Of a stretch of DNA of 33,814 nucleotides, positions 1 to 15,059 are shown piece by piece; the stretch's first letter is position 1; each line of letters starts with the position of its first letter. The translations under genes and the position numbers were made by a program. The stretch is from contig JAIPDZ010000010.1 in NCBI GenBank assembly GCA_021737425.1, positions 1-33,814 of the forward strand. The letters run 5' to 3'. The notes beneath the pieces were generated by a model. The model ran no database searches. It was not told where the DNA came from and saw nothing but the letters and a program-made list of their open reading frames with translations. Source of the stretch: Deltaproteobacteria bacterium (GTDB lineage Bacteria; Desulfobacterota; DSM-4660; Desulfatiglandales; Desulfatiglandaceae).

Positions 1-140
1 ATCCCCGGTGGACTGGCAAAGTTTACCGATTACACCAGTCCTCCGCACCGACAGCCTACACGTACTCCTCTGAAGGTGGAAGCGGGGAACTGGAAAGCAT
101 TGTAGGAGACGGTTTGGGCCGCCGTTCCATGCACGCGGGT

Positions 141-2837: not shown

Positions 2838-5606
2838 TTAAGCGGTTTCCTCGCCCATATTGTCTAAAATGCCTTCCAGATCGCTTGGATCAAAGGAAAC
2901 GGCCCATTTCCATTTTCCGAAGCCGCCGTCATTATTCACCGCACGCACCCACTCATCAAGAAAGGCCCGTTTCGTTCTGTTCTGTTGATTATCCTTGCCC
3001 TTGGTTTCCAGAATAAGCTGGCTTCCGTTTTTCAGCTTGACTATAAAGTCTGGGTAATACTTTCTTATAACGCCCTGGTAATTGTAGAGCACCATGAAGT
3101 TGATATGGTCATTCTTAACCCAGGATTCGACATTATGGTGCCTATCCAGGATATAGGCTTCCGATGCTTCCCAGGTTGAATCTAAAACACAAAAATTAAT
3201 ATGTGACTTTAGGGTCCACTGGCAAGGCTTGCTTGTCTGCCAAGTTCGCATATTACCTGTTTTTCGGATCGAGTTCTCACTATCAAAAACTGGAACCAAT
3301 TTTTCAGTATTCTCAGTTCTAATGGCTTCCCAGACATGCTGTATAATCTTATTCAGGTTCAGCATAATCAATATGCGCCTGCGTAGCTCTCCCTGGGTGA
3401 AGAGGTTGCCCTTTATAGTAACTTTACCCGAAGCGAGAAATTTCTCCACAATTCGAACCAATTGAACTAACAATAATTCCTTCTGTCCCTTCCAGTTTGG
3501 TTTTTCATAATTGAAAATTCTTTTAGCAGTTTCAAATATAATAGTTTGAAGACGGAATTTCTCACCAATCTCATTGAGGTCAATTTCTGACAAAGCCGCC
3601 GGGTTCGGTTTTCCGGCAATAATTGCAGCTAACTCGGCTTCTGTTATGGATTTGGTGGGATTTAGTTCGATTTCTTCTATTTTGGTCAGATCAATGGTAA
3701 GTCGGGGCCAATAAATATGATCTACTCGGATAACATTCGGCCAAGCTATCTCATGCCTCTTTTTATCATTAACAGCTTCAATGATTGTCTTGGGTTTTTG
3801 TGGAGGGGGTGGCGGGCCTTCCTGGTTTTCATGAGGAAGGAAGGTGAACGGCACGCCGAAGACATTAACGTATTCAGCGGCAAAAAGGCCATCCGGGTTC
3901 AAATCATATGACGTTCTCCTAAGCCCTCTGCCCACAACCTGTTCACACAAAAGTTGGCTCGAAAAGGCTCGCAGCCCCATGATATGGGTCACAGTGCTTG
4001 CATCCCAGCCCTCGGAGAGCATACCCACAGAGATTACATTTTGAATTTGTTCTCCCGGTTCTCCTCTCTTCCCGACTGTATCGACCTGCTGACGCAATAA
4101 CTCAGCCTGCTGCTTCCTGGTCAATTTTTTGCCATTCTCATCTATTAAGACAGACGCATCCGCTGCTTCCGCCGCCTCTAAGACTTTGCTGTCAATCTGA
4201 AGCGTTTTTTCGATATCACACAGGTCTGGGATCAATATCTGATGGTGGTCAAAGGCATATTTAATGCGGGCAGAGGTTTCAGTTCGGTTCGCCACTGTAA
4301 TCATCACCGGCGGTATAGTGTGTCCCTCCTTTGTCCACTTGTTTTTTGTCTCCAACCAGTCTTTACCGAGAAGATAATAGGCGTTGGTAATGAGATCAGG
4401 TAATAGCTCTGTTTCACCTGCCTTGCGGTTTACATCGTCCTTTACCTCTTTGTCCATATAGATGTGATACAAACGGGATTTATAATCCTTCGTCAGCTTG
4501 CCGTCATCCCGGATAACGACACGCGGCGTCTTTACAAGTCCGGCCTCAATTGCGTCATTCAGGCCAAAATCGGAGATGATCCATTGAAAAAGTGCCTCTT
4601 CACTGCTTTTCTTTCCGGAGGGAGCAAAAGGCGTGGCCGAAAAATCAAGACATTTAAGAATACCCCTCACCTTATGAATTCTGTCGAGACCTCCAACCCA
4701 CACGGTGGATGCCTCAATCTCCTCTTTTTTAACCCCTTTGACCTTTGATTCCGCTGGTACGCGCCAGGCGTGATGAGCCTCATCATTAATCACCAGAATC
4801 TTTCTTGCCTCCGACATATCTCCCAACACATCTCGGACATATGCCTCATCGCTCTTGGCACCGCGTTTGTCGACCGTTTTCTTTTTGGCAATTCTTTCTT
4901 CGGTATCCCATTGGAGCCCGTGCCAGTTCTGGATCATAATTTTTCCCTGGCGAAGCCTGTCAAATAGCCCCCCCGGTACAATGTTGAACAATTTGTAATA
5001 GTTGTTATTATCAAAAGGATTCAGGACTTGTAATCGGCTCTTGACGGTTAGACCGGGAGCGACGATCAGAACATTTTTGGAAAACCTCGCATCCTGTCGA
5101 TTTACCACTTTGTTTAAAACATGCCAGGCGATGGCCATAGCCATTACGATGGTCTTTCCACTTCCGGTCGCCATCTTGCAGCACCAGCGAACAAATTCAC
5201 CGCCGTCAGACGAAATGTGGATGCCGATCTTTTCTGCAACTGGGGCCTCGGTGAGCCAGATAAGAGTTTCAATGGCCTCAAGCTGGCAGAAGAAAAATCG
5301 CCGGTCCTGTCGTTCATCCGGGTCCTGCCAGTGGGCGAGAAGCCGTTTAGTGATGCCCGTCACACCAGGATATCCTCTTTCCCTCCAGTCCTTGACCCGG
5401 GGCCTTATGGTGTTCACCAGCTCGATAGGGACAAATACGCCTGGATCGTCAAACCCTTTTGACTGTGGGGTGGCGATGATATATCCAGCTGGACGTCTGT
5501 CCGATTCCAGGGAAAACTCCCTGCTTTCACGTACATACTGCCAGAATCGGGTAGGCTCTTCGTAGGGAGAATTAATGATTAGTTTTTTGATCTGCTGTTT
5601 GCTCAA
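2838..5606 (-). CDS. type III-like restriction subunit: SF2 helicase with C-terminal PD-(D/E)xK nuclease
   Basis: The 922-aa product reads as the restriction/translocase partner of the methyltransferase encoded upstream. SF2 helicase motifs are in order: Walker A MATGSGKT (145-152), DEAHHAW (275-281), SAT (about 323-325), motif V GMLSEGWDA (528-536) and motif VI EQVVGRGLRR (555-564). The C-terminus carries a PD-(D/E)xK nuclease signature, PDF at 852-854 and ETKGK from 867. Its N-terminal INSPYEEPTRFW resembles the BPTD_3080-type restriction family. The start is a TTG, supported by GGAAAGG 7 nt upstream. It follows the DUF3800 gene by 131 bases, a gap containing a possible opposing small RNA. 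It looks intact. It should cut or block unmethylated invading DNA; the recognition site cannot be read from sequence. Confidence 0.9.
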   Translation of the reverse strand: MSKQQIKKLIINSPYEEPTRFWQYVRESREFSLESDRRPAGYIIATPQSKGFDDPGVFVPIELVNTIRPRVKDWRERGYPGVTGITKRLLAHWQDPDERQDRRFFFCQLEAIETLIWLTEAPVAEKIGIHISSDGGEFVRWCCKMATGSGKTIVMAMAIAWHVLNKVVNRQDARFSKNVLIVAPGLTVKSRLQVLNPFDNNNYYKLFNIVPGGLFDRLRQGKIMIQNWHGLQWDTEERIAKKKTVDKRGAKSDEAYVRDVLGDMSEARKILVINDEAHHAWRVPAESKVKGVKKEEIEASTVWVGGLDRIHKVRGILKCLDFSATPFAPSGKKSSEEALFQWIISDFGLNDAIEAGLVKTPRVVIRDDGKLTKDYKSRLYHIYMDKEVKDDVNRKAGETELLPDLITNAYYLLGKDWLETKNKWTKEGHTIPPVMITVANRTETSARIKYAFDHHQILIPDLCDIEKTLQIDSKVLEAAEAADASVLIDENGKKLTRKQQAELLRQQVDTVGKRGEPGEQIQNVISVGMLSEGWDASTVTHIMGLRAFSSQLLCEQVVGRGLRRTSYDLNPDGLFAAEYVNVFGVPFTFLPHENQEGPPPPPQKPKTIIEAVNDKKRHEIAWPNVIRVDHIYWPRLTIDLTKIEEIELNPTKSITEAELAAIIAGKPNPAALSEIDLNEIGEKFRLQTIIFETAKRIFNYEKPNWKGQKELLLVQLVRIVEKFLASGKVTIKGNLFTQGELRRRILIMLNLNKIIQHVWEAIRTENTEKLVPVFDSENSIRKTGNMRTWQTSKPCQWTLKSHINFCVLDSTWEASEAYILDRHHNVESWVKNDHINFMVLYNYQGVIRKYYPDFIVKLKNGSQLILETKGKDNQQNRTKRAFLDEWVRAVNNDGGFGKWKWAVSFDPSDLEGILDNMGEETA

Positions 5607-5645
5607 TTGATAGCCTTTCCAATGTCATTTCTTGGAAAATATTGC

Positions 5646-5673
5646 TTGACATTCCCGGCAAAATATATATTAT
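5646..5673 (+). promoter_or_regulatory. candidate sigma70-type promoter opposing the R-M operon
   Basis: TTGACA (5646-5651), a 16-nt spacer and TATTAT (5668-5673) lie on the plus strand in the gap between the restriction and DUF3800 genes. Transcription would start near 5680 and run against the operon. Confidence 0.5.
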
Positions 5674-5679
5674 TTAACA

Positions 5680-5739
5680 CGGATTGGGGATTCCCGGTCG
5701 GCAATCAGTCGCGGTGATTATCGCGGCTTTTTGTTTTTT
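5680..5739 (+). ncRNA. candidate small RNA of about 60 nt
   Basis: Downstream of the plus-strand promoter is a short stretch ending in a classical terminator. The stem is CGCGGT/ATCGCG (5710-5715 with 5720-5725, one G-U pair) with a GATT loop, followed two bases later by TTTTTGTTTTTT (5728-5739). No open reading frame of note lies between. A second small palindrome, GGGATTCCC, is in the body. The T-run overlaps the DUF3800 stop codon. Read on the minus strand, the hairpin has no trailing T-run, so it is oriented for a rightward transcript. Such an RNA would be antisense to the mRNA between DUF3800 and the restriction gene and could tune restriction expression. This is inference. Confidence 0.4.
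5708..5739 (+). terminator. Rho-independent terminator, plus strand
   Basis: A six-pair GC-rich stem with a 4-nt loop (5710-5725) is followed by a 12-base tract with eleven T residues. It lies 35 bases after the candidate promoter's -10 box. Confidence 0.6.
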
Positions 5740-6493
5740 AGGGGAAACATTTCAGCCCCCATCCATCTATTTTACCCCTTCTATCGCAGTAAAATTTGCT
5801 CTTCAAAGCCTCGAAGGCCCTATTGCTTTGACTTGGCCTTAGAATTGATAGGCCAATTGGCCTGGCTACCAAATCAGCAAACTGTAAACCACCGGAATTG
5901 GTCTTCTTGTCTGCAAAAACAATACGAAAAGGCAGATGCTTTGAGAAATAATTGCCCCCATCACAAACTCGCCTGAACTCCAGTTCCAGATCATCGTCTT
6001 CTTTCTTACCACGATTCTCAAAAACCACATGGGTGATTTTGTCGGTCTGCCCATCGCTTTGCAGAAATCGATATGCCCGTTCCAGGCCAAAGCCCAGAGC
6101 GATATGGTAAGGGTTTTCGGGTTTTACGTACCGAGCCATCAACAAATCTTTTTTAATCACCGTCGTAATAAGAGTAAACGGGGCATGTTTCACCATTTCC
6201 GTCAGCTCATTCAAGAACGCATCTTTCTTTTCTTTGTTTTTCAGGAACTTGAAATCGCCTTTATCCTTTCGTATATCATGCTCATGTAGGATGACCATAT
6301 CATGGCCAAAATACTTGAACTTGAAGCGTTGAACAGCAGAAACGACTTGGCTTGCATACTGTTCTTTGTGGAAAATGCAAAAGGCGAGAACGAAAACCGG
6401 ATAGTTGGGATCAATTGATGCCAGGCCATGATCGCCGCTTTCATCTACATATAGGATGTAGTCACTGAAATCATCTATCTCAAATTTTTTCAA
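5738..6493 (-). CDS. DUF3800 domain protein within the R-M operon
   Basis: The 251-aa product has the hallmarks of DUF3800, a family predicted to have an RNase H-like fold: YVDESGDHGL near residue 15-24, HEHDIRK in the middle, and NSGGLQFADLVARP toward the end. The acidic residues in these blocks would form the predicted metal site. The gene overlaps the 3' end of the methyltransferase gene by 14 bases, pointing to translational coupling. The start is a TTG with only a weak ribosome-binding site; the DESGD motif is so close to the N-terminus that little room exists for a later start. DUF3800 genes are often found beside restriction and other defence genes, so a nuclease or regulatory role in the same system is likely. 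The actual activity is unknown. Confidence 0.85.
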   Translation of the reverse strand: MKKFEIDDFSDYILYVDESGDHGLASIDPNYPVFVLAFCIFHKEQYASQVVSAVQRFKFKYFGHDMVILHEHDIRKDKGDFKFLKNKEKKDAFLNELTEMVKHAPFTLITTVIKKDLLMARYVKPENPYHIALGFGLERAYRFLQSDGQTDKITHVVFENRGKKEDDDLELEFRRVCDGGNYFSKHLPFRIVFADKKTNSGGLQFADLVARPIGLSILRPSQSNRAFEALKSKFYCDRRGKIDGWGLKCFP

Positions 6494-8879
6494 TTTTTAG
6501 ACTCTCAACCCCTCTTGCGTCGATAATCTTTACGGCGATCTGCATACCAGGCTTGAAAGGCAAAGACACTGTGCCTCGAAAAGCGTCCATTTTATCTTTG
6601 TCTATTTCTGCCTTCAGGCTTTTAGCAAGACGCCCCCAGCCCTCCTTGGCCCCAGCCATTGGGAAGAAAACCTGACGAGGGAATAAACTTCTCCCGTCGT
6701 AATCCGTATCCAGCATCCACATGGCGATATCGCTTTGGTTGCCGGACTCTACATTGCCGGATTTGGGATCGTAATAGTCGAATCCAGCTACCTCCACCTG
6801 GATTTTACCCTTGTCCCCACCCTCTTTGATCCTACTGATTCTCACATCAGGTTGGCCCATAAGCCAGAAGGATTCGTTCGATGCCCGTTTCTTTTTCAGG
6901 TCATCGGTGAACATATCGGCATTCATCTGCACCCTGAGGAGCATTACTCCGGGCCAGTTGGTTTCATCGATGTCTTTGGCCGCCTCTGCATCGAATTGGA
7001 AGGCCGCAAAAATAAGCATGTCCGTTTTCGGTTTTATGGACATCGCCTCTTCAATAGCAAGTTCTACCTGCCGTTGCTCCAGGGGAGCATGTTCCGGTCC
7101 AAATGAAACAAGCACCCGTTTTGGTCCATCATCCGATGTTTCGCCCTCAGCCTGAAGGTAGCGGGTGCCGGATAGAGGCTCGATTCGGGTAAACTGAATT
7201 TTCTTGCCACCCTTTGCGCGGACCCCGCTCTTGAACAGTTCATCCCGCCATTCCGTCTGGCGAAGGGTTTCCCCTGAGCGAACAATTGAAGAATCCGCGA
7301 CTGGAACTTCAGTTTCAATTTCTTCAATGGATTTCACCACCGGTGAGGGCACAGCCTCTACAGTAAAAGGTCCAGTGACCCTGGTTTTCTTCCGGTCAAT
7401 CAAGGGTTGATCATAGAGGGTTTCTTCAGTAGGGGGCTCATTATTAGCGATGGATTTGAGAGTGATATGCGGAACAGTTTTGTAAAGAAACCCTGACCCC
7501 ACGCCTTCTTCAGGATATGCCAGTTGGTAGTATTCAAAGCTGGCGGTCATCAATCTCTGTTTGGCCAGGGTCGTGGCCACCCTTGACGTATCACAGGTGA
7601 TCCACCGGCGGCCCCATTGTTCGGCTACGTATGCCGTGGTTCCCGAACCACAGGTGGGGTCAAAGACCAGATCGCCGGGATCGGTGGTCATGAGTAGGCA
7701 ACGTTGAATTACTTTTACAGAAGTCTGTACTGCGTACAACTTATCTTCCATAAAAGGTGAGAAGACTACATCGCTCCAAATGTTTCCGATTAGATGGCAA
7801 GGCCAATCCTTCTTGAATCGTTTATACCTTAGCGTATTCCCTGAAACTATTAGTCTTTGGGCTTTCTCGAGGTTTTTAAGCCCTTGAATGCTGGTCGACC
7901 AATATCTGTTCCCAGGTACAAATGTTTTCCCTTCAAAATAAAATGGCGTACGATGATATTCATGAGAGGACGTTAGATCGCTGGTGACAAAGTCGTCCTC
8001 TCCATAAGTTTCCTCTGGAAGAATATAGAGTTGATTGTATTTCGTTTTGTCGGGATTTTTTGAGTACCAAATCAAGTAATCTGAAATGCCGGACAGAAAT
8101 TTGTCAGGTTGTGGAGACCTCTTTTGGATCGTTATTAGCCGCTGAAAGCTCCCCACCCCAAACACCTCATCCATTATACACCGCACCAGATGCAAATTCT
8201 CATCACTAATCTGCACAAATATAGAACCGGACTCATGTAGCAATTCCCTGGCCAGGAGCAGCCTGTCCCTCAAGTAGGTGAGGTAAGAATGGATGCCCAG
8301 CTCCCAAGTATCCCGAAAAGCCTTGATCATCTCAGGCTCGCAGGTTAGATCTTGGTCTTTGCCGTCCTTGACATCCCGTTTGTTTACAAAGGGCTGGAAG
8401 TTTGAGCCATACTTGATCCCGTAAGGCGGGTCAAAATATACCACCTGAACCTTGCCGCCCATGCCCTCCTTTTCAAGGAGTGAATTCATCACCAGCAATG
8501 AATCCCCGGCCACCAAACGGTTTGCCCACCCGTCTCGATGCTTGTAAAACTCGATCTCTTCACGCAGAGGGCGCCTGGCCCTCTCGAAAAGAGACATTTG
8601 ACTCGGTTCGGTATCATCCTTTTTCACCGAAGTCATTATCGACTTGGGATCGATCCGCTCATGGACATGAAGCGAAACCGTGTCGATCTCAAAGGAGGTA
8701 TGTTCGGCCTTGCCCGCCCATTGCAATTCCGGGTCGAAGTGAGGATCATACTGGTAGGTTTTTTTGGTCCCGTCCTTATCCGTGTCTGGCGTCACCAATC
8801 CGACGGGCGGGTTGTTCACCCGTTTTTTGTCATCATGGGTATACTGTTTGACCTCTTTCGGAGAGAGCTTTTTGGCCAT
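6480..8879 (-). CDS. type III-like site-specific DNA (adenine-N6) methyltransferase
   Basis: The 799-aa product is an S-adenosylmethionine-dependent DNA methyltransferase. Motif IV DPPYGIKYGSNF starts at 150 and motif I FDPTCGSGTT at 406-415. That order (catalytic before SAM-binding) is the beta class used by type III Mod subunits. The region between them holds target-recognition sequence, and the 350 residues after the SAM motif are an extra C-terminal part, likely for contact with the restriction subunit. The ATG start has a modest CAGGTG site. It is the first gene of the leftward mod-DUF3800-res operon and has a strong promoter about 60 bases upstream. It should mark host DNA and, with the helicase-nuclease, form an R-M complex. 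Confidence 0.93.
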   Translation of the reverse strand: MAKKLSPKEVKQYTHDDKKRVNNPPVGLVTPDTDKDGTKKTYQYDPHFDPELQWAGKAEHTSFEIDTVSLHVHERIDPKSIMTSVKKDDTEPSQMSLFERARRPLREEIEFYKHRDGWANRLVAGDSLLVMNSLLEKEGMGGKVQVVYFDPPYGIKYGSNFQPFVNKRDVKDGKDQDLTCEPEMIKAFRDTWELGIHSYLTYLRDRLLLARELLHESGSIFVQISDENLHLVRCIMDEVFGVGSFQRLITIQKRSPQPDKFLSGISDYLIWYSKNPDKTKYNQLYILPEETYGEDDFVTSDLTSSHEYHRTPFYFEGKTFVPGNRYWSTSIQGLKNLEKAQRLIVSGNTLRYKRFKKDWPCHLIGNIWSDVVFSPFMEDKLYAVQTSVKVIQRCLLMTTDPGDLVFDPTCGSGTTAYVAEQWGRRWITCDTSRVATTLAKQRLMTASFEYYQLAYPEEGVGSGFLYKTVPHITLKSIANNEPPTEETLYDQPLIDRKKTRVTGPFTVEAVPSPVVKSIEEIETEVPVADSSIVRSGETLRQTEWRDELFKSGVRAKGGKKIQFTRIEPLSGTRYLQAEGETSDDGPKRVLVSFGPEHAPLEQRQVELAIEEAMSIKPKTDMLIFAAFQFDAEAAKDIDETNWPGVMLLRVQMNADMFTDDLKKKRASNESFWLMGQPDVRISRIKEGGDKGKIQVEVAGFDYYDPKSGNVESGNQSDIAMWMLDTDYDGRSLFPRQVFFPMAGAKEGWGRLAKSLKAEIDKDKMDAFRGTVSLPFKPGMQIAVKIIDARGVESLKIEKI

Positions 8880-9046: not shown

Positions 9047-9961
9047 TCAGGATTTGTGGGCATCATCGGAAAATGAGTCATGGGCCTCCAGTTCCTTTTT
9101 AAGTTCCTCAATCTCCTTTTGACGGTCGGGGAGGAAGTGACTGATTTCCTTATTGATTTTCGACATGGCTTCCAAACGCCTCTGTTCGAGTTCCTCATCG
9201 GATGGAAATTCGTTTCCGCCATCCATAGGTTCCGGTGGCTCCTCTTTTCCCAAGAGAATTCTAATGGTTTCCGGTAGCGCCACGCCAATTTCCTCGCACA
9301 AGACCGCCGCTCTGGTCACGTCAAGGTCTTGTTCAACAAATCGTTTCAAGAGGTCGCGAACGGCCACAGTGCTTTCAATGTTAGAGATTGCGGGCATTAA
9401 TTTAAGGAGAGAATCAATCACCACGCTAACATTCCTGGTCAATTCCAGGCTGTCCTTGGCGGTTGCAATTCCCTTTTGGATCTCCGCGCGCTTCGCCCCG
9501 TTTTGTTCGAGATCCTGGAGGGCCTGATAGAGTGCCTGGAGGACGCGGCTATGCAGTTTCGCAATCGCGTCAGCTCCTTTCTGTTCGGCTATTGCCGCCA
9601 CGTTTTCGGCCTTGGTTCGCTCCTTGATTTCCGCCTTTTGAGCAAGCCAACCCTTTGTTTTCTTGGCGAAATAGCCTGTCGTAGAATTCAGACCTTTCGC
9701 GCGTGCAAAATGGGCAAGGGTCTCAAAATCGCCTTCGAGGAATTGAATGCGCAGGCCTTCCCATTTGGATGTCGCGTCCTTCCGGGCGGTTTTTCCGTCT
9801 TTCCCGGTTGCCATATTCCGCCTGGCAAATGCCTTCCGGGCGTTTTCGAGGGGCAGGCCTTCGCGTTCACAAAACGACATTAGTGTCATCCCTGTGTTTG
9901 CGGAGACCTCTCTCCAAACCCTGTACCAATGGTCCCACCGATCACTGCGTAGGTGTGCCAT
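9047..9961 (-). CDS. hypothetical island protein with two HTH-like segments and coiled coils
   Basis: The product is about 304 aa. I take the ATG at 9961, which has AGGGTG six bases upstream; the GTG at 9970 lies inside that site. Near the N-terminus, SFCEREGLPLENARKAF looks like a helix-turn-helix, and a second, TLAHFARAKGLNSTTGYF followed by KKTKGW, appears about 55 residues later. The second resembles HTHs of small-terminase-like phage proteins, but this is a weak call. The rest is helical, ending with a long charged coiled coil (about residues 240-295). The gene overlaps the upstream 61-aa gene and lies 76 bases before the mod promoter. It probably belongs to the island's replication or transfer module. 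No enzyme motif is visible. Confidence 0.7.
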   Translation of the reverse strand: MAHLRSDRWDHWYRVWREVSANTGMTLMSFCEREGLPLENARKAFARRNMATGKDGKTARKDATSKWEGLRIQFLEGDFETLAHFARAKGLNSTTGYFAKKTKGWLAQKAEIKERTKAENVAAIAEQKGADAIAKLHSRVLQALYQALQDLEQNGAKRAEIQKGIATAKDSLELTRNVSVVIDSLLKLMPAISNIESTVAVRDLLKRFVEQDLDVTRAAVLCEEIGVALPETIRILLGKEEPPEPMDGGNEFPSDEELEQRRLEAMSKINKEISHFLPDRQKEIEELKKELEAHDSFSDDAHKS

Positions 9962-10127
9962 CGTTTTCACCCTGTGGCTCAGCCTTGCGCAGCCTTAAAC
10001 AGGCCGGTGGCTCCACGTCACACTGTTTTTCCAGTTCTTCAAGTCTCAACTCAAGTTTGCCCAACTGCCCCGCAATGTACCTGAAGATGGCTGCTGTTTT
10101 GGGGTCCTTTTGCAATACGTTCGACAT
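9942..10127 (-). CDS. small coiled-coil protein
   Basis: This is a 61-aa product with a near-perfect AAAGGAG ribosome-binding site seven bases before its ATG, so I regard it as real. Residues about 10-40 (FRYIAGQLGKLELRLEELEKQ) form a predicted amphipathic coiled coil; the tail is polar. It overlaps the start of the 304-aa gene by about 20 bases, a sign of coupled translation. It follows the zinc-ribbon gene by 97 bases. The function is not known. Small coiled-coil proteins in such positions often oligomerise or act as adaptors. Confidence 0.7.
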   Translation of the reverse strand: MSNVLQKDPKTAAIFRYIAGQLGKLELRLEELEKQCDVEPPACLRLRKAEPQGENDGTPTQ

Positions 10128-10224: not shown

Positions 10225-10563
10225 TCATTTGACCGCCTCCGGAATCCAGCATCTTTCCCAGGCCTGGAGGGTTTCTTTTGCCCTGGCAAGATCCCCATTC
10301 TTGGCCTGTTGGGTGATCTGGCTTTCCAAAACGAAGGCCTGGTGTCGTGTACTCTCAGAGTAATCCATCATCCTGACGCCCAGCCGATTGAGTTCAGCGA
10401 CTGCCAGGGTTACATGGTGCTCGAAAGAAGGTTGGCCAGAGCATGCGCTGTCAGCGCGGCCTTGAAATGACGGTCCTGCCCCTGCGTTCAATGGGGCGTC
10501 ACAACAGATGCAGTGGCCCCAATTCGGGTTGACGACGGCTTGACATTCCGGACATCTATTCAT
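10225..10563 (-). CDS. zinc-ribbon protein next to the repeat array
   Basis: The 112-aa product starts with a zinc ribbon, CPEC at 4-7 and CICC at 18-21, the latter followed by APLNAG. After a flexible stretch it has an alpha-helical region (EHHVTLAVAELNRLG, then HQAFVLESQITQQA and KETLQAWERCW). The ATG is preceded by GAAGG at good spacing. The reading frame begins immediately downstream of the GGTAAACT repeat array, so its promoter must lie in or beyond that array and it could be controlled by whatever binds there. A role in DNA or RNA binding fits the ribbon. I do not recognise a named family. Confidence 0.75.
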   Translation of the reverse strand: MNRCPECQAVVNPNWGHCICCDAPLNAGAGPSFQGRADSACSGQPSFEHHVTLAVAELNRLGVRMMDYSESTRHQAFVLESQITQQAKNGDLARAKETLQAWERCWIPEAVK

Positions 10564-10581: not shown

Positions 10582-10792
10582 AGTTTACCCCTGTCCATTT
10601 TCTGGTAAATTTTTGGTAAACTGAGAGTTTACACCCCCTGTAAACTTTCATGAACATTTACCCCCTTGGTAAACTTTTGAGTCCCTGAAATCATTGAGGA
10701 ATTATCCTAAAGTTTACTAAAATGCTGGTGTAAATTTTACACCTTAAATTTGGTAAACTTTTGCTTTTTACTGGTAAACTTTCATGTAAACT
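10582..10792. repeat. iteron-like array of about 13 GGTAAACT-type repeats
   Basis: The whole gap between the helicase gene and the zinc-ribbon gene is filled with copies of (G/T)GTAAACT(TT) in both orientations. Rightward copies start at 10604, 10615, 10639, 10668, 10729, 10752, 10773 and 10785. Leftward copies are at 10582-10589, 10626-10633, 10656-10662, 10711-10718 and 10735-10741. The pair at 10727-10743 makes a perfect 8-1-8 palindrome, GGTGTAAATTTTACACC. The segment is AT-rich. An iteron origin or a multi-site operator is the natural reading, given the neighbouring RepA/DnaB-like helicase whose C-terminus looks like a helix-turn-helix. A CRISPR is excluded by unit size and irregular spacing. 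Confidence 0.85.
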
Positions 10793-10797
10793 TCTAA

Positions 10798-12198
10798 TCA
10801 GCATTTTTCATTCTCTACCGGGTGAATCATTCTCCCTGGCAGTAGGTCACCCTGTTCAATCGCCTTCTTTTTCAGTCGGCTCACCAGGCCTTTTGATACC
10901 TTCAACTCATCTGCCATGTCTGAAACGGTGTCAATGCCGTCACGGGCGAGCGCGAGCATCCGGTCGTAAGTCGAATCCTCAATGGGCCTCCAGGTCCATG
11001 ATTCAGGGGTTCCAAGGCTTAACGAGGCCTCAAAGGGCTTAACGTCCTCACCATAGGCACCACGGCTTTTGGTGAAGGTGACCGTAAACTTGGCCCCATC
11101 CGCTACATCATTTTGCACTGAGCCAAGTTTTACGACCGTATCCAGCATGTCTTCCCGGCCACTCGTTCCCCTCTGGTCTCCACCCTTTCCGGCATGATGA
11201 ACGAGAACCACCGCAACCCCCCTCCGACGAATCGCCAGCAGCCAAGGGGTAACCTTCTCCCAGTCATCTTTAGAGGATTCTTTGATCCCCCTGAACAGGC
11301 AGCTTATATTGTCGATGATGAGCAGGCGGATCCGTTTATCGTTATCGAGTATCTTCAAAATTCCCTCTTGAGTGTCTGAGTTCACGAAATTGAGGTCTCG
11401 CTCAAATTGGGTAAACGCCACCTCGCCGCTCAGAATTTTCAGCGGTTCTACTGGCTTCCCAGGGAGAAGGGAGGTAAGCCGCTCACGGAGGTCTGCTAAG
11501 GCCATCTCTCCGTCAATCACCAGAACGCCTACCGGCTCGCTCGGTTTGCCCCACTTCATAAAAGGCCGATTACACGCCGCCGCTATGGCCAAGAAGAGAA
11601 CGAAAAAGGTTTTGCCTATCCCTCGGGGCCCGTAGAGCATTACCAGCCCGCCTTGGCAAAGCCAGGAGAATATTTTCTGGCGTTCCGGAATCTCCATCTT
11701 CTGAAGAGCGGGCAAGTCCAGCACGCACGTTTCGAGGGAGGGCCGGTATTCCCCGGCTTCGTGCGCAAACTCTTTGGCTTGTGCTAATAATTCATTCAGA
11801 ATCGTTGAAGGATCTTCAGAAAGGTCAATCAACTTGTCGGCTGATTCGAATAGGGCCAGCGAAGCCTTTCGCCGCGTAGCGAGCTCCTGGAGCTTAGCCT
11901 GGAGATTCCCTAAGCCTGCCCCGTTCACTGGCTCCTGGGCAAGTTCGGAGAGGAATTCGTGGTCAACCTGAACCTGCAACTTTTCCAACGCATCCATAAC
12001 GCTGAAAAGGGGGTCCTCACTTGGCCCCGCTTTTTCGATAGCCAAATAGAGGCGACGGTAGGTTTCATCTGTAAATGCTTCACCATCCAGTAAGTGAGTG
12101 CCTCGCGTTTGAGGGTAAGCGAGCTTAATCGCAACATACGCCCGCTCATGCTTTAGGCTCGATAAGCCCTTGACTTTTCGCGTTTCTTGTCTTATCAT
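10798..12198 (-). CDS. RepA/DnaB-like RecA-fold replicative helicase with C-terminal HTH
   Basis: The 466-aa product has a helical N-terminal region like the DnaB N-domain (first about 140 residues). A RecA-type ATPase of the RepA/AAA_25 kind follows: Walker A GPRGIGKT (190-197), VIDGEM (227-232), Walker B LLIIDNIS (292-299), and VLVHHAGKGGDQRGTSGRED (331-350), which matches the RSF1010-RepA/KaiC-like group. Residues about 421-452 (VSDMADELKVSKGLVSRLKKKA) form a winged-HTH-like end. A hexameric helicase used to replicate a mobile element is the likely role. ATG start with AGGT about 10 nt upstream. The gene follows the 52-aa ORF by 54 bases containing a hairpin, and its 3' end touches the repeat array. 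Confidence 0.85.
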   Translation of the reverse strand: MIRQETRKVKGLSSLKHERAYVAIKLAYPQTRGTHLLDGEAFTDETYRRLYLAIEKAGPSEDPLFSVMDALEKLQVQVDHEFLSELAQEPVNGAGLGNLQAKLQELATRRKASLALFESADKLIDLSEDPSTILNELLAQAKEFAHEAGEYRPSLETCVLDLPALQKMEIPERQKIFSWLCQGGLVMLYGPRGIGKTFFVLFLAIAAACNRPFMKWGKPSEPVGVLVIDGEMALADLRERLTSLLPGKPVEPLKILSGEVAFTQFERDLNFVNSDTQEGILKILDNDKRIRLLIIDNISCLFRGIKESSKDDWEKVTPWLLAIRRRGVAVVLVHHAGKGGDQRGTSGREDMLDTVVKLGSVQNDVADGAKFTVTFTKSRGAYGEDVKPFEASLSLGTPESWTWRPIEDSTYDRMLALARDGIDTVSDMADELKVSKGLVSRLKKKAIEQGDLLPGRMIHPVENEKC

Positions 12199-12413: not shown

Positions 12414-12617
12414 CTATCCCGTTTCGCTCGCGTTATCACGCATCCGCATCCTTGCTTCCGACCAGTTTGAGATCTCGTGTTCAATCCATCCGACCGACCT
12501 TGCGCCTAATTTCACGGGAGCGGGGAAAGTGCCCTCCTTGATTCGTAAGTAAATCGTCGAGCGCGATAGGCCAGTTCTCTCCTCAACTTCAGGGCGTCTC
12601 AGGAATTTGATTGCCAT
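12414..12617 (-). CDS. alpA: AlpA-family transcriptional regulator / excisionase-like
   Basis: The 67-aa product matches the AlpA family: FLRRPEVEERTGLSRSTIYLRIKEGTFPAPVKLGARSVGWIE is the typical MerR-like HTH plus wing, ending before EHEISNWSEAR. In P4 and related satellites AlpA activates the integrase gene and thereby excision. The ATG is separated from the XRE stop by two bases and the stop from the 52-aa ORF by two, so the three are translated as a block. The repeat cluster at the integrase promoter (14726-14794) is a candidate binding site. Full length for the family. Confidence 0.9.
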   Translation of the reverse strand: MAIKFLRRPEVEERTGLSRSTIYLRIKEGTFPAPVKLGARSVGWIEHEISNWSEARMRMRDNASETG

Positions 12618-12619
12618 GA

Positions 12620-12826
12620 TCAGGAGCCCCCCTCGGACGTTTCAGGGAAAATTTCTGCGACGTCACAATGTAGTGATTCTGCCCAGCGCTTCCTTTCTTT
12701 TTTTGGGAGTACTCTTCGACCACGGACCACCCGTGAAACGGTGGACTCCGGATGCCCAATTGCCTTGGCAAAATCAGCTTGAGACCCAAAAACCTCGAAA
12801 ATTTTTGCCTTCAGTCTTTTGTTCAT
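12620..12826 (-). CDS. XRE/Cro-type repressor
   Basis: The product is a 68-aa DNA-binding protein. I start it at the ATG at 12826, preceded by AAGGGGAAAGGG; an upstream ATG at 12865 would add 13 residues but overlaps an operator-like palindrome and has no such site. The HTH is FGSQADFAKAIGHPESTVSRVVRGRR, typical of Cro/XRE proteins, followed by a short tail mentioning HCDVAEIFPE. It is essentially just the DNA-binding domain, so it acts as Cro or as a small repressor. The 17-bp palindrome 12848-12864 lies 22 bases upstream of the start, and a near copy lies at the start of the next gene upstream, so autoregulation is likely. Confidence 0.88.
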   Translation of the reverse strand: MNKRLKAKIFEVFGSQADFAKAIGHPESTVSRVVRGRRVLPKKERKRWAESLHCDVAEIFPETSEGGS

Positions 12827-12847
12827 GTCCCTTTCCCCTTTATTTAT

Positions 12848-12864
12848 TGTTGAAACATTCAACA
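12848..12864. promoter_or_regulatory. operator-like palindrome upstream of the XRE gene
   Basis: TGTTGAAACATTCAACA is a perfect 7-3-7 inverted repeat. Fourteen of its 17 bases recur at 13431-13447. Position just before the XRE start suggests autoregulation. Confidence 0.6.
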
Positions 12865-12882
12865 TATCTTGTCCAAAAAAAA

Positions 12883-13508: not shown

Positions 13509-14726
13509 TTATTTTCCTCTCGCCCTCCTCAATGGAATTACCTTACCCCCGGTCTTTAACGCGTCCAGATAATCCGCCCAGCCTTGCATCATCTTCCGCC
13601 GTTTGGGTAGATGCTCGGCATGGTTGTATGCGCTTTTCACGCTGTTCCGTTCGGCATGTGCCAACTGGCGCTCAATGACGGCCGAAGGCCAACCCTGTTC
13701 GTGGAGGCGGGTGGATGCCATTCCCCGAAACCCGTGTCCGGTCATTTCGTCTTTGGCATAGCCCATGCGTCGAAGCGCCGCGTTCACCGCGTTGTCACTC
13801 ATGGGGCGCTGGCTGGATCTCAGGGACGGGAATACATACCGTCCGCTACCTGTAATCGGTTCAATTTCCTTAAAGATGTCAACAGCTTGTCGGGCTAACG
13901 GCACAATATGGGGTAGCCCCATTTTCATTTTTTCGCCCGGGATTGTCCATGTCGCATTGTCAAGATCAATTTCCGACCATTCGGCCTTCCGCAATTCCCC
14001 AGGTCTGACAAAGACCAGCGGCGCCAGCTTCAAAGCGCATTGGGTCGCGATCTGTCCGTCATATTCATCGATGGCCCTGAGAAGCCCCCCAATTTTCTTG
14101 GGGTCTGTTAATGCAGCCATATTCATCGTTTTTATGGATACCAAAGCCCCCTTCAAATCCGCGCTTGGATCCCGGTCTGCCCTTCCTGTGGCAATGGCGT
14201 AACGGAATACCTGACCACACATCTGTTTTATCCTGTGAGCCGTGTGAAATGCGCCTCTTTTTTCGATCTTCTTAAGGACCGCCAAAAGGTCAGGGGCTGT
14301 AATCAGTTTAATAGGTCTCTTGCCAATCATGGGGAAAACATTCACTTCAAGCCGTCTTATCACCCTCGATGCATGGCCCTCACTCCATGACCGTTCCTGC
14401 TTTGCAAACCACTCTCTCGCAATGGTCTCGAAGCTGTTCTTCATCAATTCCCGCTTCATGATTTTGGCTTCTTTTTGGTGCTGGGAAGGGTCAACATCCT
14501 TTTTGAGGAGTTTCCGCGCATCGTCCCGCCTCCGCCTGGCCTCGGCCAGCGTTACATCCGGGTATACCCCCAAAGCCAGAGTCTTTCTCAATCCATAGAA
14601 ACGATAATCGAATCTGAAATACTTCCCTGATTTCCGAACCAAGACATAAAGCCCCCGCTCGTCGGACAACTTATAGGGTTTCTCCTTTGGTTTGGCATTC
14701 CTGATGGCGGTATCGGTGAGAGCCAT
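13509..14726 (-). CDS. int: P4-type tyrosine integrase
   Basis: The 405-aa product is a phage/island integrase. An N-terminal arm-binding region (LSDERGLYVLVRKSGKYFRFDYR) is followed by a SAM-like core-binding segment and the catalytic domain. Catalytic residues visible are R241 (FVRPGELR), H331 and R334 (HGFRGMAS), H357 (LAHAE) and Y367 (SAYNH). The ATG at 14726 has GGGG at 9 bases; a 23-residue upstream extension is possible but lies in the repeat region. It recombines the island at the adjacent tRNA-Glu 3' end and should work with AlpA for excision. Length and order match P4/IntS integrases. It appears intact. Confidence 0.95.
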   Translation of the reverse strand: MALTDTAIRNAKPKEKPYKLSDERGLYVLVRKSGKYFRFDYRFYGLRKTLALGVYPDVTLAEARRRRDDARKLLKKDVDPSQHQKEAKIMKRELMKNSFETIAREWFAKQERSWSEGHASRVIRRLEVNVFPMIGKRPIKLITAPDLLAVLKKIEKRGAFHTAHRIKQMCGQVFRYAIATGRADRDPSADLKGALVSIKTMNMAALTDPKKIGGLLRAIDEYDGQIATQCALKLAPLVFVRPGELRKAEWSEIDLDNATWTIPGEKMKMGLPHIVPLARQAVDIFKEIEPITGSGRYVFPSLRSSQRPMSDNAVNAALRRMGYAKDEMTGHGFRGMASTRLHEQGWPSAVIERQLAHAERNSVKSAYNHAEHLPKRRKMMQGWADYLDALKTGGKVIPLRRARGK

Positions 14727-14794
14727 GACGGTATCCCCTTTTTGACGGTATCTAAAATGACGGTTTTTGCATGTACCGTCACAGTGTACCGTCA
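14726..14794. repeat. five TGACGGTA-type repeats at the integrase start
   Basis: TGACGGTA occurs at 14726-14733 and 14743-14750, a TGACGGTT variant at 14758-14765, and the reverse complement TACCGTCA at 14774-14781 and 14787-14794. Starts are 13-17 bases apart. The first copy includes the integrase start codon. They cover the -10 box, the start point and the 5' leader, so they are probable operator or integrase-arm sites. Confidence 0.75.
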
Positions 14795-14812
14795 AATCCC
14801 CTCGGCTGTCAA
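14783..14812 (-). promoter_or_regulatory. candidate integrase promoter
   Basis: On the minus strand, TTGACA (14812-14807), an 18-nt spacer and TACACT (14788-14783). Two TACCGTCA repeats overlap its -10 region. Confidence 0.5.
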
Positions 14813-14907: not shown

Positions 14908-14983
14908 TGGTAGTCCCAACGGGACTCGAACCCGTGTCGCCGGCGTGAGAGGCCGGTATCCTAGACCGCTAGACGATGGGACC
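14908..14983 (-). tRNA. tRNA-Glu (anticodon CTC)
   Basis: On the minus strand a full cloverleaf is seen. The acceptor GGTCCCA pairs with TGGGACT, the anticodon stem CCGGC/GCCGG holds the loop CTCTCAC with anticodon CTC, and the T-arm is ACGGG-TTCGAGT-CCCGT. The discriminator is A and the CCA end is encoded (14908-14910). It is 2 bases downstream of tRNA-Gln. Its 3' end is the probable attachment site of the island, as the integrase lies just beyond. Confidence 0.95.
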
Positions 14984-14985
14984 GA

Positions 14986-15059
14986 TGGCTGGGGGACGAG
15001 GACTCGAACCCCGGATAACGGGACCAGAACCCGCTGTATTACCGCTATACTATCCCCCA
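14986..15059 (-). tRNA. tRNA-Gln (anticodon CTG)
   Basis: On the minus strand, the acceptor TGGGGGA pairs with TCCCCCA. The anticodon loop TTCTGGT in a GCGGG/CCCGT stem gives anticodon CTG, and the T-arm is CGGGG-TTCGAGT-CCTCG. The discriminator is G and CCA is encoded (14986-14988). It is cotranscribed with tRNA-Glu. Confidence 0.95.

Follow-up and report, generated by a model that had tools for sequence, protein, structure and literature searches.

A cluster of short repeats lying directly 3′ of a RepA/DnaB-like helicase gene in a deltaproteobacterial contig (JAIPDZ010000010.1; the whole stretch analysed, hereafter the window, is 33,814 nucleotides long) very probably serves an integrated mobile element as its replication origin, with the helicase as initiator. 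The observations that carry this reading are computational: the array itself, its position in related loci, its dependence on a C-terminal domain of the helicase (a natural deletion) and its covariation with the recognition helix. They are joined by links between single residues and bases, by rules tried on held-out loci, by a helix-turn-helix (HTH) domain predicted on a RepA/DnaB-like core, by an integrase-tRNA-AlpA-Xre setting and by experimental precedent for the design. The features concerned are:

10582..10792, unstranded: array of ~13 iterons (AAAGTTTACC / GGTAAACTTT) lying in both orientations; putative origin of replication
10727..10743, unstranded: perfect 17-bp palindrome GGTGTAAATTTTACACC, formed by two back-to-back iterons
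10798..12198, minus strand: RepA/DnaB-like ATPase of 466 amino acids (AAA_25; Pfam E=4e-26, AlphaFold, Foldseek) with C-terminal HTH; proposed initiator helicase
10855..10983, minus strand: C-terminal three-helix HTH, residues 406-448 (predicted local distance difference test score, pLDDT, ~96; HTH_23/HTH_7-type matches in relatives); proposed iteron-reading domain
10870..10899, minus strand: residues 434-443 of the recognition helix, VSKGLVSRLK; these positions covary with the iteron
10225..10563, minus strand: zinc-ribbon protein of 112 amino acids, just past the array

The array starts directly 3′ of the helicase stop, which ends at 10798, and fills the gap up to the zinc-ribbon gene, leaving 19 bp before the start codon of the latter. 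Within 10582-10792, thirteen sites have a TAAA core and differ from GGTAAACT at no more than two positions, eight of them on the plus strand (10604, 10615, 10639, 10668, 10729, 10752, 10773 and 10785) and five on the minus strand (10582, 10626, 10655, 10711 and 10734), and GTAAACT is exact in nine. The number of 8-mers within one mismatch of GGTAAACT is 10, whereas 2,000 dinucleotide-preserving shuffles averaged 0.49 and never exceeded 4. An earlier note on this DNA, made from the sequence alone, had described about 13 repeats in both orientations packing the helicase/zinc-ribbon gap and including a 17-bp palindrome; these numbers confirm that description and refine it, in that the array is downstream of the helicase gene, the repeat core is GTAAA and the unit is better given as AAAGTTTACC. 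A counterpart of the palindrome, GGTGTAAACTTTACACC, is found in a 64%-identical relative (L011; loci of the survey carry L numbers, the window being L001). The G+C content of the array is 33%, versus 52% for the window. Exact GGTAAACTTT occurs eight times in the 4.14-Mb genome (three in the array, one at window positions 18-27 and four scattered singles); since it occurs only singly outside the array, the genome holds no second one.

The AlphaFold model of the helicase (60 aligned relatives; mean pLDDT 83.5) predicts with confidence a RecA-like core and a C-terminal three-helix HTH (helices 406-419, 425-432 and 436-448), while its first ~100 residues are poorly predicted. The domain that the earlier note had suspected at the C terminus is therefore confidently predicted. 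Foldseek matches of the model include DnaB, RadA and RSF1010 RepA, and the C-terminal segment of relatives is matched by HTH_23, HTH_29 or HTH_7. Many relatives also carry a fused DnaG-type zinc finger plus Toprim primase; the same domain searches found no fused primase domain in the window helicase. The initiator apparently missing from the element is probably the helicase itself.

Relatives of the helicase (183 scanned; non-redundant at <80% core identity) were surveyed for arrays, defined as at least five copies of one 7-mer within 300 bp. Among 101 non-redundant HTH-bearing relatives from other species, 70 harbour an array at the 3′ end of the helicase gene, yet arrays were found in merely 3 of 97 regions upstream of the same genes and at 19 of 535 3′ ends of other open reading frames in the same loci. 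Moreover, arrays accompany 77 of 115 helicases with a C-terminal domain of any kind and only 1 of 12 that end right behind the ATPase core (P=1e-4; Fisher test), the lone array among the latter being a low-complexity tandem run. The comparison of homologous helicases that the earlier note had proposed supports its suggestion of an origin belonging to an integrated element, the recurrence being far above upstream, other-gene and shuffled controls. The repeat word differs among relatives (for example, GTTTACC, GTTTCC, GTTGCG and TGTCCC); the first relatives looked at have TGGGACA (L002) or AGGAAAC arrays (L003, L004 and L006) at the helicase 3′ end. The arrays typically span ~200 bp, with a commonest site spacing of 11-12 bp, and are modestly more A+T-rich than the gene. 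A central AT-rich block between two iteron sets was considered and rejected: the largest gap was central in 49 of 70 arrays, against 41 expected, and its A+T content was not higher.

Relatives were present in many chromosomes, but 72,556 plasmid and 50,697 phage records contained almost none, which suggests that integrated elements are their main home. A scan of viral contigs with a single protein returned no relatives; alignment-based scans did find them.

Several further properties of these loci were recorded. AAA_25 helicases with another kind of C-terminal domain (L141-L145, L147, L149-L154 and L166-L169) are likewise accompanied by arrays, of other words such as GCGAGACA and CTGGAGCAC, and are possible further reader-origin pairs. 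In L005 the helicase is cut near its C terminus beside an IS21-type IstB gene, and the locus is without an array. A C-run/G-run hairpin (CACCCCC TTA GGGGGGG) lies within the arrays of L003 (2623-2641), L004 and L006; the window array has C-runs and no hairpin of this type. The iteron of L176 (copy: L364) is GGTGAAC, which we take to resemble the type I iteron of P4. A conserved SLKALAxKVL-like peptide is encoded in 21 of 134 non-redundant loci (including L046, L002, L028, L039, L086, L022 and L040) by a frame that lies within or close to the array, ~+70 to +220 from the stop of the helicase; several of these frames start overlapping the helicase stop (ATGA), thus placing iterons inside a reading frame.

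The repeat word follows the predicted recognition helix. With the similarity of the helicase core and of the rest of the HTH removed, motif similarity correlated with recognition-helix identity (partial Mantel r=0.333, P≤0.0005, n=70; maximum of 2,000 permutations, 0.138), and the most informative helix columns were +6, +2 and +7 (numbered from V434 of the window helicase as +0). Within GTTT-type arrays, lysine at +7 went with GTTTCC in 17 of 17 cases, and arginine or glutamine with GTTTA in seven of the nine lacking lysine; asparagine, histidine or aspartate at +1 went with GTTG in 20 of 22, and asparagine at +4 with GTTGCG (discovery set). Independent pairs on the core-domain tree agreed, with on average none opposing, and are too few for significance alone; for this analysis the window motif was entered manually as AGTTTACC, the script having taken it in the opposite register. 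As the rules had been chosen after the table was viewed, they were fixed in writing before new loci were added. On the held-out loci the lysine rule (GTTTCC) was right in four of five, the asparagine/histidine/aspartate rule (GTTG) in five of five and the +4 asparagine rule (GTTGCG) in two of two. Since several frozen rules failed there (see below), the residue-base code is partial, not complete; the association of helix and repeat is real, and it supports the C-terminal HTH as the iteron reader.

The surroundings of the helicase and array are those of an integrated element, with helicase, AlpA, Xre-like gene and integrase all on the minus strand:

12414..12617, minus strand: AlpA-family regulator/excisionase (Pfam PF05930, E=4e-21)
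12620..12865, minus strand: Xre-like small HTH regulator
13509..14795, minus strand: tyrosine integrase of the element
14908..15059, minus strand: tRNA-Glu(ctc) and tRNA-Gln(ctg), adjoining the integrase; likely attachment site
9047..9970, minus strand: protein of 307 amino acids with weak N-terminal similarity to terminase small subunits (TerS; phrog_370, E=0.0017)

For the 307-residue protein, no clear Pfam, NCBIfam or PDB support for the terminase match was obtained; a distant relative of it sits upstream of the helicase in L011. As cargo, the window carries a type III restriction-modification cluster at 2838-8879 (Mod, a DUF3800 protein and a BPTD_3080-family restriction enzyme).

Helicases that find an origin beside their own gene have been described experimentally. 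In the Rep of Staphylococcus aureus pathogenicity islands (SaPI) and in Cch2 of the staphylococcal cassette chromosome mec (SCCmec), it is the C-terminal domain that reads iterons located just past the 3′ end of the helicase's own gene, and both are described as self-loading initiators (PMC7581432). The window shares with them an integrated element, iterons 3′ of the helicase gene and a predicted C-terminal DNA-binding domain on the helicase, but their helicases are of the DUF927 or Primase_Cterm/D5 type whereas that of the window is a RecA-fold AAA_25; the hosts also differ, and Cch2 has three iterons versus ~13 here. Gram-negative phage-inducible chromosomal islands (PICI) carry int, AlpA, rep and an origin with iterons immediately 3′ of rep, in one transcription direction (PMC6092414). 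The window likewise has int, AlpA and rep-ori all on the minus strand. It differs in that its Rep is AAA_25, not of the DUF927 or D5/Primase_Cterm family, and in that the two iteron sets around an AT-rich block seen in PICI are not clearly seen; the only candidate for packaging is the TerS-like match above, which lacks support elsewhere, and the element is not classifiable as a PICI on present evidence. The earlier note had held a helicase-iteron pairing to be unusual; this is incorrect, given that such a pairing operates in the replicons of SaPI, Gram-negative PICI and SCCmec (PMC7581432, PMC6092414). The design is already known from these replicons, and the difference lies in the motor, an AAA_25 helicase of RecA fold; a literature search that missed most subscription journals turned up no account of AAA_25 helicases followed by iterons.

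Two other systems divide the same tasks differently. The alpha protein of P4 unites an origin-binding winged helix and a helicase, and its origin has iterons (PMC4234260). A like union of helicase and origin reader is proposed for the window; a primase is also fused in P4 and in many relatives, unlike in the window helicase, and a PDB search by sequence profiles only gave no match to the solved origin-binding domain of alpha up to E=1. With IncQ/RSF1010 the likeness is one of fold only, namely the RepA core (fold match 1nlf, template modelling score 0.73 by target length; profile match 1g8y). RSF1010 leaves iteron reading to a separate protein, RepC, whereas in the window the proposed reader is fused to the helicase; no RepC-type initiator turned up among the scanned window proteins, although no search was aimed at RepC.

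Even with the HTH binding the repeats, the array might be an incompatibility, copy-control or partition (centromere-like) site and the true origin lie elsewhere, which we regard as improbable. Such a role is favoured by the presence of a further iteron cluster (crr) in P4 and by the part that iterons also play in copy control, as well as by a very weak profile similarity of the helicase HTH to ParB. Yet a single array was seen per locus, no ParA-like ATPase was present among the scanned window proteins, and in SaPI and Gram-negative PICI this position is occupied by the origin (PMC6092414, PMC7581432).

Less probable still is that the repeats are operators controlling the zinc-ribbon gene or the operon that lies downstream, to which AlpA, Xre or a different regulator of the element binds. 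The 19-bp distance to the zinc-ribbon start codon would suit an operator, and a related zinc-ribbon gene follows the array in a few relatives (L012 and L016; a similar ribbon start also in L014). On the other hand, the repeat word tracks the recognition helix of the helicase, and a dozen binding sites are many for an operator. AlpA was detected in seven array loci, too few for a covariation comparison with the repeat. The operator reading, which the earlier note had offered as its second option, is further weakened because the downstream gene varies by locus, with 6 of 68 carrying it on the opposite strand, and because the longest downstream frame runs through the array in ~16 loci. The helicase might also repress the zinc-ribbon gene, operator and origin roles not being mutually exclusive. 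That the repeats cluster by chance or through mutation and have no function, for which an AT-rich region (33% G+C) favouring some words would speak, can practically be discounted, as the array is 20-fold above shuffles and arrays of differing words recur at this position across many species.

Several results weigh against the array as an origin read by the helicase. Thirty-one of the 101 HTH-bearing relatives have fewer than five copies of one word, many of them having three or four of the expected one. No clear AT-rich melting block was found, the largest gap in the array being no richer in A+T than the rest. Among the held-out loci, the arginine/glutamine rule (GTTTAC) gave no exact prediction in the four with arrays, one being half right (GTTTAG); threonine at +4 (GTTGCA) was right in none of one, and the TGTMCC rule in about one of three. 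The rule that applies to the repeat of the window itself found no confirmation in the held-out loci, and rests on the discovery set (the window, L011, L012, L070, L081 and L101). Furthermore, the search for the far end of the element was unsuccessful, with no direct or inverted copy of the tRNA end of at least 14 bp left of the integrase in the window.

Under the origin-initiator reading, the C-terminal HTH of the RepA/DnaB-like ATPase would bind the GTTTACC iterons, and their many copies would gather helicase hexamers on the origin. The RecA-fold motor might then open the DNA and start a fork, with origin melting and self-loading by the helicase. Priming would fall to a host DnaG-type primase here and to the fused DnaG-type primase in many relatives, and replication would follow excision. 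The statement on the helicase-array family is better supported than any single one of these biochemical steps in the window element.

DnaB/RepA-fold replicative helicases ordinarily rely on other proteins for locating and opening an origin. On balance we favour a broader interpretation, held with less assurance than that for the window: a widespread and seemingly undescribed replicon family in which a DnaB/RepA-type (RecA-fold) helicase has its own origin-recognition domain, needs no separate initiator or loader, and follows a partly readable amino-acid-to-base code through which a few changes in the recognition helix would give elements private origins. If so, a helicase locating its own origin would make a compact starter of replication, and the family would offer a large natural set of helicase-origin pairs in which to study specificity change in an HTH and the avoidance of incompatibility by mobile elements. 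For the annotation of origins in integrated elements, the place to inspect would be just past an AAA_25 helicase bearing a C-terminal HTH.
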